In this document: one piece after another, positions 4,411 through 43,769 of the stretch
Layout of the letters: every line of letters starts with the position of its first letter
Numbering within the stretch: position 1 is the stretch's first letter
NCBI RefSeq assembly: GCF_000313135.1
Contig: NW_004457442.1
Coordinates: 1,611,669-1,675,668 of the forward strand
Direction: 5' to 3'
Length of the DNA: 64,000 bases
From: Acanthamoeba castellanii str. Neff
Taxonomy: Eukaryota; Discosea; Longamoebia; Acanthamoebidae
The notes under the pieces: generated by a model
Database searches by the model: none
What the model was told of the DNA's origin: nothing
What the model saw: the letters and a program-made list of their open reading frames with translations, nothing else
Translations under genes and position numbers: made by a program

Positions 4411-5753
4411 ATGACTGAGAAGGAGGTCAAATGCGTTGTCGTCGGTGACGGCGCCGTCGGTATGTCGCGTAGTCTCCTACTGGCATCAAATTCTTCATTT
4501 CGCTTCTTTTTTAATTATTAAATTTTACGTAGTCGCCTAATCTCAATTTAAGGAGGGATCAATCAATCGCTAACGAGGGTGGGTCTGCAGGTAAGACGTG
4601 CATGCTCATTTCCTACACCGAGAATCACTTTCCTGTCGAGTACGTGCCCCCCTCTAAATTCATAAGCTTCAATCTTCAGACCCCTGCCAGTCTCATGGAC
4701 GGATTCGCACTTCGCCTCCACACGCGGCAGGTACGTGCCGACCGTATTCGATAATTATGAAGCGCAGATCCTCGTGGAGGGCCAGGAGGTGAAGTTCTCG
4801 CTCTGGGATACCGCTGGTACGTCGCCCTACACGAAATCCATTTTTCTCTGCCGCCTCCTCAAGATGGCTTCTCTATCAACGCGATCTCTTCTGCGCTCCT
4901 TCGCTCCCACTCTTCTCCTTTCTCTCCATCTACGGTGGTCTGACTGGTGGCAATGCCTGGGGCGTGTAAACGAGGGCAGGCCAGGAAGGCTATGCGCGCA
5001 TCAGGACGCTCTCGTACCCGAAGACGGACATCTTCCTCCTCTGCTTCTCCGTCGTCAACCCCTACTCCTACGAAAACGTCAAAGAGACCTGGCTCCCCGA
5101 GGTGTGCTTTCTTTCACTCCCTCCTCCTCGCACCATCGTCCCTCGCACCAACTCACGCGCGGCCATCTTCGTTCTCGCTCTCTCGCTCTCTCTCTCTCTC
5201 TCTTTCGCTCTTTCTCTCGCGCTCTCGGTCGTGTTGGGTGTTGGGCGCGATCGCGTTCTCCTAGCTGAGGCATCACTGCCCGACGACGCCGATCATTCTG
5301 GTGGGCACGAAGATCGATCTGAGAGAGGATGCCAAGACCCTCGAAGAGCTCCAAAAGAACAAGAAGGACCCCATCACGCCCGAACAAGGTGCTCCCCCCT
5401 CTCTCCCCTCTCCTTCGTGGTGATTGTGCACGCTCACGTTGGTGGTGGACATTTTACGATGGTGTGGCGCAGGCCAAAAGCTGGCCAACGAGATCAAGGC
5501 CATCAAGTACCTGGAGTGCAGCGCCCTCACCCGGCGGGGTCTCAAGAACGTTTTCGACAACGCCCTCACCGCTGTTGTCTGCGCCAAGGTACCTTTCATC
5601 GCCCACACTCGTGTGTTCGTATGCGTGTGCGGTGGTGCATGTGCGGTTGCTGTGAGACACGAGCTCACACCGCGCCACAATCATCCACTCGAGCAGCAAG
5701 AGGATTCGAGTGCGGGGTCTTCCAAGCCCAAGAAGAAGTGCAGCCTGTTCTGA
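4411..5753 (+). CDS. Rac-like Rho-family small GTPase with CAAX end
   Basis: Molecular switch of the actin system. Seven exons give a protein of about 195 residues: [17 protein letters not shown] (from 4411), [25 protein letters not shown] (switch I, canonical), [15 protein letters not shown] (G3), [14 protein letters not shown] (G4), [17 protein letters not shown] (G5, Rho type) and a last segment ending KPKKKCSLF with stop at 5751-5753. The intron at 4462-4591 splits the P-loop between GDGAVG and KT. A basic stretch followed by CSLF predicts prenylation; a terminal Phe favours geranylgeranylation by GGTase-I. The Rho-specific helix is present as [17 protein letters not shown]. Everything needed for nucleotide binding and hydrolysis (G12, T35, Q61 equivalents) is intact. 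The final intron is a multiple of three and unstopped, so its removal is inferred from microsatellite-like content. Confidence 0.93.
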
Positions 5754-30665: not shown

Positions 30666-32624
30666 ATGGAGGAAGAACAAGTACCTCATGATCTGTGGAA
30701 GAGGAAGCCCAGTCCTTGCCGTACCGTCCCGGGAGGATCCGAAGATGCCCCGATGCCCCCCTCGCCCCCGGCAGCCACCAAGGCCACCATCAAGGTACCC
30801 GACCTGGGCAAGTACGACCGCATGCTACGCGCGGGCGTGCCCCTGGCCTACGTCGAGCAGAAGGCGCGCCACGACTCCGCCGCCCCCCTCGACCTGGTCA
30901 AGTACGTGCGCATGCTTCACGCGGGCGTGCCCCTGGCCGCCGTCGACCAGAAGATGCGGGTCGACTACAACTCCTCTGTGCCTGCGCCCGCCGTCGGCAA
31001 CCTGAACAAGTACGACCGCATGCTACGCGCCGGCGTGCTGCTGGCCGCCGTCGAGCAGCTGATGCGCATCGAGCTCGCTCGTGGCCCGCAAGCCGCCAAG
31101 GTCGTCGGTGACCCGGGCAAGTACGCCCGCATGCTCTCTGCGGGCGTGCCGGCAGCTGTCGAGCAGAAGATGCGCGTCGATGTCGCTCAACCCCAGCCCA
31201 ACGACGGGGCGGCTGGCAAGTACGTGCGCATGCTGTCCGTGGGCGTGCCGCCGGCAGCGGTCAAGCAGAAGATGCGCGTCGATGAGGACCGCGCGGCGAC
31301 CTGCGCCGCGGTCGGCGACAACCTGGCCAAGTACTCGCGCATGCTGCGTGCCGGGGTGCCTCAGGCAGCTGTCGAGCAGGCGCTGCGCCACGACTCCGTC
31401 CATGCGCCCAAGTGCGCGCGGCGCTCCGTCGTGCCTCAGGCGGCAGCGGCACAGAAGAAGAAGAAGATGGAGAAGAAGCTCCTCAACGACTTCGCCGTTC
31501 CCGTGGCCAAGGCCGCCAGCCTGGGCCAGTATGTGCGCATGCTGCACGTAGGTGTACCGCCGGCGGCCGTCGAGCAGAAGATGAGTGTCGACTACGCCCA
31601 ACCCGTGCCCGCTGTCGGTGACCTGGGCAAGTACCAGCGCATGCTGCACGCGGGCGTGCCCCCGGCCGCCGTCGAACAGACGATGCGCCGCGACTTCGCT
31701 CCTCCTCCCGCGCCTGCGGCCAAGGTCGGCCGCAACTTTGGCCAGTACGTGCGCATGCTGCACGCGGGCGTGCCCCTGGGCGCCGTCGAGCAGACGCTGC
31801 GCCACAATGGCTTCGCTCCCGTGCCCAGCAAGGTAGGCGACCTGGGCAAGTACGACCGCATGTTGCGCGCTGGCGTACCGCCGGCCGCCGTCCAGCAGAA
31901 TCTCGCCTCCGCGCCCACGGCCGCGGGCGGCAACTTCGGCCGTAGGCGCCAGGCGGCAGCCGTGCAGAAGAAGCGCCGCAACGGCTTCGCTCCTCCCGCG
32001 CCCGCGCCGAGGGCCACTAAGTACGCCCGCATGCTCCGCGCGGGCGTGCCCCTGGCCGCCGTCGAGCAGAAGATGCGCATCGACTATGCTCCCATCCCCG
32101 CAGCCCAGAACCTGGGCAAGTACCATCGCATGCTGCGTGCGGGCATGCCTCTGGCCGCCGTCGAGCAGATGATGTGCGTCGACTTCGCTCAGCCCGCTCC
32201 CGTGGCCATAGCCGCCGATCTGGTCAAGTACGCACGCATGCTGCACGCGGGCGTGCCTCTGGCCGCCGTCGAGCTGGCGCTGCGCAACGACCTGGCTCAC
32301 GCACCGGTGGTCGGTAACCTCGGCGTGTACGACCGCATGCTGCGTGCCGGGCTGCCCCTGGCAGCCGTCGAGCAGGCGCTGTGCCACGACTTCGCTCCTC
32401 CCGCCGCACCTACGGCCAAGGCCACCAATGACCTGAGCAAGTACGCACGCATGCTGCATGCGGGGGTGCCGCTGGCCGCCGTCGCGCAGAAGCTGCGCGT
32501 CGACAACTCCTGCAAGCCCGAGCCCGGTCTGGGCAAGTACGCGCTCATGCTGCGTGCGGGGGTGCCGCTGGCCGCCGTCGAGCAGAAGATAGCCGCCGAT
32601 GCACCGGAAGGCCGCTACTTCTAG
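30666..32624 (+). CDS. Tandem GVP-motif repeat protein (about 18 repeats)
   Basis: A single uninterrupted frame of 652 residues from ATG 30666 to TAG 32622-32624, unusual among these intron-rich genes. After a 45-residue leader it consists of 16 clear and 2 decayed copies of a unit whose core is KYxRMLxAGVPxAAVEQKMRxD, spaced 30-40 residues apart by short Pro/Ala linkers. Gly-Val-Pro and the flanking Met-Leu and Ala-Val are nearly invariant. The core resembles the single motif near the C-terminus of the WASH-complex subunit WASHC3/CCDC53 (GVPVMAIRNKM) and similar motifs beside formin-type actin regulators. No enzyme domain, signal peptide or membrane segment is visible. A role as a multivalent scaffold is inference. 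High DNA similarity between copies suggests recent duplication or conversion. Confidence 0.85.
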   Translation: MEEEQVPHDLWKRKPSPCRTVPGGSEDAPMPPSPPAATKATIKVPDLGKYDRMLRAGVPLAYVEQKARHDSAAPLDLVKYVRMLHAGVPLAAVDQKMRVDYNSSVPAPAVGNLNKYDRMLRAGVLLAAVEQLMRIELARGPQAAKVVGDPGKYARMLSAGVPAAVEQKMRVDVAQPQPNDGAAGKYVRMLSVGVPPAAVKQKMRVDEDRAATCAAVGDNLAKYSRMLRAGVPQAAVEQALRHDSVHAPKCARRSVVPQAAAAQKKKKMEKKLLNDFAVPVAKAASLGQYVRMLHVGVPPAAVEQKMSVDYAQPVPAVGDLGKYQRMLHAGVPPAAVEQTMRRDFAPPPAPAAKVGRNFGQYVRMLHAGVPLGAVEQTLRHNGFAPVPSKVGDLGKYDRMLRAGVPPAAVQQNLASAPTAAGGNFGRRRQAAAVQKKRRNGFAPPAPAPRATKYARMLRAGVPLAAVEQKMRIDYAPIPAAQNLGKYHRMLRAGMPLAAVEQMMCVDFAQPAPVAIAADLVKYARMLHAGVPLAAVELALRNDLAHAPVVGNLGVYDRMLRAGLPLAAVEQALCHDFAPPAAPTAKATNDLSKYARMLHAGVPLAAVAQKLRVDNSCKPEPGLGKYALMLRAGVPLAAVEQKIAADAPEGRYF

Positions 32625-32777
32625 ACATGCTTGCCAGCAGCCCAACACAGCCAAGCGTTGACCAGGGTTGTTTTTCGTTGACCACATTGTTTCGCCTAAA
32701 CCGACTGAACAACCCAAGTTTGCTTTATTATCAATATTATCATTTTTATTTTTTAGGTATTGAAAAGTAAGTGGAAG

Positions 32778-35572
32778 ATGGAGGCAGGCACCCCCTGGAC
32801 CTCACTGCCCTCGGGCCACCAGGCGTCGACGGTCCGCATTGTGCGCTTGCCCTCCTCCCCAGGTTGTGCGACGGACGACTGGCGGGAGCGCATCAGGGAC
32901 GAGGTGCGCCGCCACAGCTTCGCCCTCCTCAGTTTTGTCGACGACCACCACGAAGACCACGAAAAAGGAGCCGAGGAAGAAGAGCGTAAAGTACGACGAA
33001 AAAGTCTGCACCAACTGCTGGCCGACCACCGCGAGCGCGTGCGGCCGCAGTTCTTCGACCAGCCGGCCAGCGCTAAGCGGCGCCTCGACCCGGACGTCTT
33101 CGCCGCCCTCACGGCCGCGGCTGCCGAGGCAACAAAGAACGAAGGCAACGCTGCGGCGGCCCGTGGGTCCGAAAGAGCGAAGCTGACCGGCCGGCTGGGC
33201 GACACGGGCTACTGCCTGCGGGAGGGCATCAAGGAGCAGCTCCAGGTGCGTCTCGGCCAGCGCATGCCCTGGCCGACCGCCGTCAACGAAGAAGAAGAAG
33301 ACGGAAGTGGTGATGGTGGTATGATGAAGGAGGAGATGGAGGCCCTGTTCGAGATGCTCGATTGCGTGGGCCGGCGCTGTGCGTCGGCGCTGGTGGCGGA
33401 CGGCGCGAGCGCGCGGCTTCAGGCGATGCTCGACCCGTCGCCCGACCACCTCCGCGACATCCTCCACGCCGCCTCCAAAGAACGAAGCGACGAAGACGAA
33501 GGCTGCAGCGCCGACTACACGAGCTCCTCCGTGATGACCCTCACCCACTACTTCAACACCGACCAGGTGCGTTCGCTCTTCTTCGACTCGTGCGGGAGTG
33601 CATAGCATGGCATAGCAACCACGACCTATCGTGCGAGCTCGCACATGGCACGCAACTCACTGCGTGATGATTGGGTGTACGAACAGGGTCCGGAGGAACC
33701 GTGTCGGGCGCACGGGGACGCCGGCCTGCTGACGCTGGTCGTGGACCCGACGCCCGGCCTGCAGCTGTTTGACCCGTGCGGCGCCAAGTGGTTGGACTGC
33801 GCCGACCTCGCGCCGCTCGAGCAGGTGCTCCGCAACACACCCCTCCATGGATGAGAATTGAAGTGCAGACCGAACTCACGCCGTGCGAACAGGCGCAGGG
33901 CGTGCGGGTCGACGCGGTGCTGATGATCGGCGAGGCCCTCCATCGCTTCACTCAGGTACGTATTGCCTGCCCGGTGGTATGCGTGTGCGGTGGCGTGCTG
34001 AGTGCGCGCGGCGTGGCGCTGACGTCGCGATCGCACATGCAGGGAGGCGTGGGGGTGACGTCGCACCGGGTGGTGAACACCGGCCAGCCGCGCAGCTCCA
34101 CGGTCTTCAAGCTCCGGCCGCGCCCCGACGTCGTTGGACCGCGCACCGAGGCCGACTACGCCCTCCTCCTGCTCCAGCAGCCGTGCGCCTCTCCCCACCA
34201 CTAGCGCTCGCGCACGAGTCTCACGCGTGTGCGTTTGTGTGTGTGTGTGTGTGTGCGGTGACTTGTGCAGGGTGGTGACGCAGCTGAAGCGACGGGAGGA
34301 GGAGGCGGTGGCGTTGTGGCAAGAGACCGGGTTCGACGTGTTAGTCCACGTGTTGGGCTTCCTGCGGGACGAACGCGACGTCGGCCGGTGCGCCCTCGTC
34401 TCGCGCGCGTGGCGGGAGGCGGCAGACTCCCAGGTACTGTGGCGCCGCATCGTGGCCCGCCTGAGCCGCGAGCTGGGCCTCGACCTGGTTGCCCGCTACG
34501 CGGCCAAACGCGAAAGCGAAAGCGAGGACGTGGACAAGAACGAAAACGAAAAAGAAAGAGAACGCGAAAGCGAAGAGGCCGAAGTGGTCGACTACAAGCG
34601 CCTCTACGTCGAGTACGTACGGGAGTTGCAGGCCAGCGCCGGCCATCTGAAGGACATGCACGAGGCCCAAGACTTCTACCTCAACCAAGTGCATCTACCG
34701 CCACTGGGCTCGTCCTATACCTCCCTCAAGATCGTCACCGTCGGCTCTGGCGCGGTACCTCGATGCGACACGCGACACAACACACACGACACGACACGAT
34801 ACAAACACACGGACTCACCATGATGCGTGGTGCTAGGTGGGGAAGACGTCGATGCTGGTGACCTTCGCCTCGGGTTCGTTCCCACAGGAATATATCCCGA
34901 CCGTGTTCGACGAGTGGACGGGAAACCTCAGGGTTGACGGCAACGTGGTCTCCTTCGGGCTCTGGGACACTGCCGGCCAGTCCGAGTGCGTTTTCTCCGT
35001 GCGTGCCTTCTGTGCGGCGTGTGCGGCTGACAGTTGAGGGGTGTCCGCGGTCGTGCGCGCAGATACGATCGGTTGCGTCCGCTGTCGTACCCGCAGACGG
35101 ATTGCTTCTTCATGTGCTTCGCCGTCAACGACCGCGCGTCGTTCGCCGAGGCCCGCGACAAGTTCGTGCCCGAGGTGCGCCTGCATTGCCCGTCGGCGCC
35201 CATCATCCTCGTCGGCACCAAGGCCGACCTGCGCGACACCGACGACGCCCTCTCTCTCGTCCCCGTTGCCGAAGGTCCGCCCCACCGCACCACCATCAAT
35301 GCACGTCGCGTCGTGTTAATGATCGTATGCGTGCGTGTCGCGATGCAGGTGTGGCGTTGGCGCAGGAGCTGGGGCTGTTGATGTACGTGGAGTGTTCAAG
35401 CAAGGCGAACAGCAACGTGCAGGAGGTGATCCACCTGGGCATCAAGGCGCCCCTTCTCAAGGCCGCCGGTCTCCTCCGCCTCCACCACACCAACAGCGGC
35501 GGCGGCGGTGGCGGCAAGGCCAAGAAGACGAAGAAGAAGGCGGGCAAGCGCGACCAGTGCTCCATGCAATGA
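32778..35572 (+). CDS. Predicted 2OG-Fe(II) oxygenase / F-box / Rho GTPase fusion protein
   Basis: Eight exons join in phase into 740 residues: 32778-33566, 33687-33824, 33869-33955, 34043-34182, 34271-34754, 34837-34985, 35063-35274 and 35349-35572. Residues 1-384 are an isopenicillin-N-synthase-like oxygenase: the HxD of [11 protein letters not shown] (His272, Asp274), the distal His346 in TSHRVV and the RSS at 355-357 that would bind 2-oxoglutarate. Residues about 406-445 are an F-box ([30 protein letters not shown]). From about 538 comes a Rho GTPase: [55 protein letters not shown], a Gly/Lys linker and CAAX CSMQ. The key splice (34183-34270) uses GTGCGC and GTGCAG; the F-box exon has no upstream ATG in its frame. 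The alternative is that the oxygenase stops at 34202-34204 and a second gene begins. Confidence 0.8.
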
Positions 35573-43500: not shown

Positions 43501-43769
43501 TCGCCCTCATCCTCTCTTCGCTCTACGCTGCTGATCGAGATCGTGACTTGGTGCTCATGGCACGGTGGGGGCAGAAGCTCCCTCTCCATGGCGCGCTGCC
43601 AGAGGGCGTCGTCGTTGATGGTCCACTCGTTCCATCGTCGGCAGACGAGCCTCGCCACCAGCAAATCGTGCGAAACGAGAAATGAAAAGATTTGCAGCAC
43701 CACGCATCTCGAATCCACCAGGATTTCTTTCGAGCCGCGATCTTTGCTGACGGCCGAACGGATTCCCAT
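40589..43769 (-). CDS. F-box and CCHC zinc-knuckle protein with large low-complexity region
   Basis: The ATG at 43769 (MGIRSAVSKDRGSKEILV) opens an exon with an F-box: VVLQIFSFLVSHDLLVARLV, CRRWNEWTINDDALWQRAM. A GTACGT/CACAG intron joins in phase to MEGTSCEELLSGLDVIPRF, then another to CYNCGMCGHRGEDC, a CX2CX4HX4C zinc knuckle that usually binds single-stranded nucleic acid, and PLFDDMFMSTQRSPRER. A fourth exon of 2.2 kb (about 42785-40589) starts GGATLPGSLAVWHRKAIGGW, has a nine-Lys run and is then almost wholly Pro/Ser/Thr/Ala-rich. The F-box suggests an SCF ubiquitin-ligase adaptor; its joining to a zinc knuckle suggests an RNA-linked substrate (inference). All three splice phases agree. 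Confidence 0.8.

Follow-up and report, generated by a model that had tools for sequence, protein, structure and literature searches.

The window, as the whole stretch of DNA analysed here is called (64,000 nucleotides from Acanthamoeba castellanii str. Neff), carries on its forward strand, at positions 32778..35572, coding sequence resembling an oxygenase, an F-box and a Rho GTPase in immediate succession. The question raised by this locus is whether the three modules form one protein and, if so, what such a protein may do. As the initial annotation had proposed, eight exons can be joined in frame across seven introns (44-120 bases, all GT-AG) into 740 residues followed by a stop codon. Exon 1 (32778..33566), which begins at the first ATG downstream of an in-frame stop, encodes the N-terminal part of the oxygenase (residues 1-263); exons 2 (33687..33824) and 3 (33869..33955) encode its core; and exon 4 (34043..34182) encodes its end. 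After the joining intron (34183..34270), exon 5 (34271..34754) carries the F-box (34335-34454), a charged linker and GSGA, half of the P-loop. The other half, VGKT, lies in exon 6 (34837..34985), which also contains switch I and DTAGQ, and the GTPase continues through exon 7 (35063..35274) into exon 8 (35349..35572), where its end is followed by a glycine run, a basic stretch, the residues CSMQ (35558-35569) and the stop codon. An Rfam search gave no match at the gathering score. The upstream neighbour on the same strand (30666-32621) encodes, in one uninterrupted frame, 652 residues in which a KYxRMLxAGVPLAAVEQKM-like motif recurs about 15 times in tandem; this motif matches the WASH-complex subunit CCDC53 (PF10152, 207 bits, 11 stretches); to our knowledge, CCDC53 is not normally a tandem repeat protein.

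The F-box and GTPase are readily recognized. In Pfam, the F-box-like profile scores 43.7 bits at residues 407-446 (cut-off 24.3) and the Ras profile 144.2 bits at residues 538-695; in NCBIfam, small_GTP lies above its cut-off and one other match far below its own. All five GTPase boxes (G1-G5) and Rac-like switches can be read (GSGAVGKT, YIPTVFD, DTAGQ, TKAD and ECSSKA), and the best PDB sequence match of the GTPase is Rac1 (E 1.8e-54). By its sequence, the GTPase is classed as a canonical Rac/Rho type whose C-terminus carries a basic stretch and the CaaX-type end CSMQ. Of the earlier description as a complete Rho GTPase with a CAAX end, the G boxes and the terminal motif stand; as to completeness, the Rho insert region is about 8 residues shorter than that of Rac1 in the alignment. 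Shorter Rho inserts have been reported in some amoebozoan Rho proteins, according to the accessible part of PMC8305917. The Pfam scan of the joined protein, read up to E 1, gave no match to a BTB or JmjC domain. Elsewhere in the window, a Rho-like stretch lies at about 4723-5149 on the forward strand (C124:1616391-1616817), with a TAA inside one matched frame, and an F-box-like match of 40.2 bits lies at about 43593-43703 on the reverse strand (C124:1655261-1655371).

A protein search with the F-box part returned three sequences that resemble exon 5 (P0006, P0007 and P0008). In P0008, a metagenome protein, the F-box continues into the GTPase without an intron, and its GSGAVGKT is identical to that of the spliced model; the join between exons 5 and 6 is therefore supported. 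An AlphaFold model of exon 5, built with four sequences, had a mean pLDDT of 51 and was discarded. Within the genome, 150 scored F-box matches out of 452 candidates were compared with at least 159 GTPase loci at a spacing of up to 1.5 kb. At no fewer than seven loci, a GTPase is preceded on its own strand by an F-box, where a uniform spread would give 0.47 for each orientation class; among the matches listed, the reverse order on the same strand occurs at none and opposite strands at one. Besides this locus, the seven comprise C79, C65, C15, C78, C101 and C189, a recurrence that the initial annotation did not describe. Since P0008 has no intron between the two domains, C79 is a standalone paralogue and the arrangement is found at seven loci, the predicted F-box-GTPase pair in one protein is regarded as secure. 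By sequence, these loci are a gene group with the order variable N-terminal part, F-box, small GTPase, of which the present locus is the oxygenase-bearing member.

C79 (L036 5628-7027) is the closest match in the genome to the F-box exon and is followed by Rho exons; it could be assembled as a standalone F-box-Rho gene of 346 residues, 42% identical to the window protein over 304 residues. Its own ATG lies 22 codons ahead of the F-box match; it ends in CSLQ and gave no match to the oxygenase query. Its model requires a GC-AG intron that interrupts the P-loop, and where switch II of the window protein is the canonical DTAGQSE, C79 has the degenerate DTPGRSE. The other members differ in front of the F-box. 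An ankyrin repeat precedes the F-box in C189 (L052; E 6.7e-9), and C101 (L051) has weak ankyrin matches at the same place (E 0.028 and 0.057, below cut-off). C65 contains a single frame of 490 residues in which the F-box is the sole Pfam match and the GTPase start was recognized by eye, with a P-loop that lacks the usual GK; Ras matches follow in the next exons. The N-terminal part of this F-box-Ras-like gene (L043 849-3258) is long and of low complexity. F-box score and spacing to the neighbouring GTPase are the same in C65 and in C128 (L044), which are perhaps haplotypes or a duplication; C128 ends shortly past the F-box. At C78 the Ras match is 24.8 bits, above cut-off; an SH2-like stretch seen by eye about 500 bases before its F-box (L050 2554-3095) may be part of this gene or of a neighbour.

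The C-terminal ends of the group are similar as well. A C-x-L/M-Q end occurs in five of the seven loci: CSMQ here, CSLQ in C79, CLLQ in C15, CVLQ in C101 and CTLQ in C189, the last three being read from the last GTPase-like frame, as full gene models were made for this locus and C79 only. No CaaX-type end was seen by eye in C65, and none was found in C78. For comparison, 12 ordinary GTPase loci were examined, these being top matches and not a random sample, with L002 and L003 near-copies; 11 had a frame, and the ten readable ends finish in F, Y or M, none of them in Q. A CaaX motif ending in Q favours farnesyl-transferase, and one ending in F favours geranylgeranyl-transferase.

The oxygenase is the more divergent module. 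Its active site had been described as complete, and direct reading of the sequence agrees: the iron triad H272-G-D274 (33711-33713 and 33717-33719, exon 2) and H346 (34064-34066, exon 4) is present together with R355-S-S (34091-34099). On the other hand, the domain search proposed earlier for the joined protein recovered the F-box and Ras domains but not the oxygenase at the required level, as 2OG-FeII_Oxy scores 18.7 bits (E 0.0022, profile positions 5-101 of 101), below the curated cut-off of 23 bits. For this reason, only the name "divergent, PF03171-like" is used for the predicted core. A six-frame search of the whole genome with PF03171 found three places, with this locus absent among them, as can be expected because a weak match is split over exons. 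The three places were considered as close relatives and rejected, since this locus alone was matched by the oxygenase query; introns disturbed their alignment, which served for motif inspection alone. A PDB sequence search with the oxygenase gave a single match at E 0.52, which is meaningless.

Whether this oxygenase is joined to the F-box depends on the intron 34183-34270. In line with the initial annotation, it has canonical ends (88 bases, GTGCGC...TGTGCAG) and is in phase 2, the codon being split after its second base. The agreement in phase was rejected as strong evidence, given that it has a chance of 1/3 and that 19 of the 36 donor-acceptor pairs tried at the join are open and in frame. 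The donor at 34183 is the sole GT between the end of the stretch resembling P0010, a metagenome sequence, and the stop codon TAG at 34202-34204, which lies in frame inside the intron; of the acceptors tried, only the one at 34270 gives an open, in-frame join with it. Around this acceptor, P0007 matches 29 of 30 codons downstream and 4 of 10 upstream, although the comparison is short.

Stronger evidence comes from P0010, a 122-residue metagenome ORF that was returned by a search with the oxygenase part together with P0009, the window's own frame. P0010 bears an oxygenase end in which the distal histidine and the R-x-S motif are also kept, and of the 30 positions that lead through LLLLQQ, 21 are identical to the window protein. 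In the window, the final codon of LLLLQQ ends at 34180, which leaves two more bases in exon 4. The same frame goes on past the oxygenase through a linker into LPKDVLLNILKLTNIATVGKSSSVC. On this tail, the F-box profile PF00646 reaches 13.2 bits (E 0.088, profile positions 3-28 of 43), below cut-off, and two unrelated Pfam families over or near the low-complexity linker do slightly better (E 0.053 and 0.073), so that the PF00646 match alone is thin. An HMM made from nine F-boxes of this genome scores the tail at 10.6 bits, a value reached by none of 5000 shuffled tails (4053 reported, best 7.5). In addition, the F-box match of P0010 ends at profile position 28, and in C101 and C189 the matches of the F-box exons end at 28-29; this common end looks like a shared intron position.

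An alternative reading is that two genes adjoin here, an oxygenase gene that stops at the TAG 34202-34204 and, behind it, an F-box-Rho gene whose 5' exon is unseen. It would account for the stop that the unspliced exon 4 frame reaches at 34204, and C79, with an ATG of its own, provides a precedent for a standalone F-box-Rho gene. Several observations are at odds with it. As stated earlier, the F-box frame contains no ATG from its stop at 34074-34076 down to the F-box, so that exon 5 needs an upstream exon. The gap that would separate the genes (34205-34270) would be 66 bases long, GC-rich and with a TG run, and its AT content of 0.394 lies within the range of the seven introns (0.322-0.455), unlike that of the gap 32625-32777 before the gene (0.608), which counts against two genes. 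Finally, P0010 passes from the oxygenase into half an F-box within a single ORF. Two separate genes are thus considered distinctly improbable, and the join of oxygenase to F-box is supported by P0010 and by the missing ATG.

It is even less likely, in our estimation, that both forms are made, with splicing of 34183-34270 giving the fusion, retention giving a free oxygenase that ends in CASPHH, and the F-box-GTPase tail serving as an optional part for localisation and turnover. The retained form would stay open for six further codons before the stop, and no sequence feature speaks against retention; these six codons, however, are not seen in P0010. The preferred reading, one three-part transcript of oxygenase, F-box and GTPase, is very probable, and the single three-module protein predicted initially is well supported by sequence comparison with P0010, P0008 and C79 and by the F-box frame without an ATG. 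When the joined protein was compared with 5.8 billion proteins and the best 7996 word-sharing candidates were scored, the trio was present in none; five proteins were returned, all with a Ras domain and covering 19-23% of the query. Protein and genome searches found no further oxygenase-F-box relatives besides this locus and P0010, three scans of viral contigs confirmed no close relatives, and the join region had no match in plasmid records.

With regard to function, we somewhat favour the view that the locus encodes a single protein of about 740 residues that acts as a membrane-placed F-box adaptor with a GTPase and a substrate-facing oxygenase. If prenylated, the GTPase end, with CSMQ and the basic stretch, would put the protein on the membrane, where the nucleotide state of the GTPase might gate or position it. 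The F-box would dock Skp1-Cul1, and the N-terminal part would face the substrate, as the ankyrin repeats would in the siblings. Because C189 has ankyrin repeats before its F-box, substrate contact may fall to the oxygenase in the window protein, and this module could also oxidise the bound substrate. The membrane-attached SCF adaptor suggested at the outset therefore fits the anatomy of the protein (F-box, GTPase and CaaX-type end), whereas GTP control and oxidation are inference only. A further step is quite unlikely, namely that a membrane-anchored SCF receptor hydroxylates its bound substrate and so triggers or times ubiquitination, the Rho switch setting where and when; it would need O2 and 2-oxoglutarate, and it would unite in one chain what the prolyl-hydroxylase/VHL system divides between proteins, within a family of F-box proteins switched by GTPases.

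The F-box could also be a self-turnover or scaffold device, in which case the protein would be a membrane-bound metabolic oxygenase without an outside ubiquitination substrate, its amount set via SCF docking and its placement via the GTPase. Many members of the PF03171 family, which the core resembles, act on small molecules, and F-box proteins are often unstable. The C189 sibling nevertheless has ankyrin repeats, which are binding modules, at the same place, and we regard this alternative as unlikely. For the adaptor reading, the group as a whole suggests that such adaptors for protein degradation, bound to membranes and controlled by a switch, form a family. A ligase adaptor, a GTPase switch and a membrane-anchor signal in one chain with exchangeable fronts would allow a direct test of a GTP-controlled SCF, and the oxygenase-bearing member would make it testable whether an oxygen-dependent enzyme licenses degradation within the same chain.

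A literature search over titles and abstract starts of open-licence papers returned neither an F-box-Rho protein nor the trio of oxygenase, F-box and GTPase, and no open-licence paper on an F-box with a Rho GTPase domain in Amoebozoa was found. In the accessible main text of a review with a tree of amoebozoan Rho GTPases, five of them from Acanthamoeba castellanii, the term F-box does not occur. The initial annotation knew of no described protein with this set, and none was found in these searches of open-licence papers and of proteins.

Several known systems share parts of this arrangement. KDM2A and KDM2B (FBXL11/FBXL10) combine a 2OG-Fe(II) oxygenase with an F-box in one protein, but theirs is a JmjC oxygenase accompanied by chromatin domains, whereas the window protein has a PF03171-like core and a GTPase. 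FBXL2, a prenylated F-box protein, likewise has an F-box and a CaaX end; it carries an LRR substrate domain and is not known to contain a GTPase, in contrast to the window protein. PhyA is similar as a 2OG oxygenase with a tie to the SCF, but it belongs to another subfamily, works on Skp1 as an enzyme in its own right and is not known to contain an F-box or a GTPase. The connection to Skp1 hydroxylation by PhyA, which the initial annotation raised while noting the difference in subfamily, finds no support in the present evidence, none of which concerns Skp1. The JmjC class of 2OG oxygenases and the alias FBXL10 for KDM2B appear in the accessible part of PMC11241480, and a PhyA-type Skp1 prolyl hydroxylase of Toxoplasma, which ties a 2OG oxygenase to SCF biology, in that of PMC11192375.

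A parallel in the GTPase is RhoBTB (RacA of Dictyostelium), which also places a Rho GTPase and a cullin-ligase adaptor domain in one chain. RhoBTB proteins carry a pair of BTB domains with links to cullin-3 ligases (PMC8305917, accessible part). There the BTB domains follow the GTPase and the partner is cullin 3, whereas in the window protein an F-box precedes the GTPase. According to the same part of that paper, RacA is without a CaaX motif, unlike the window protein with its CSMQ, and no oxygenase is mentioned for RhoBTB there, whereas one is present here. In multidomain ARF-family GTPases, an F-box is fused to a small GTPase, as in the window protein; such fusions with F-box or BTB have been reported (PMC8358228, accessible part), so that the principle of combining a GTPase with a ligase adaptor is already known. 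Those proteins belong to the ARF family, whereas the GTPases of the present group are of the Ras family (Rho type in the window protein, the others judged by eye), with CaaX-type ends and, in the window protein, the oxygenase.
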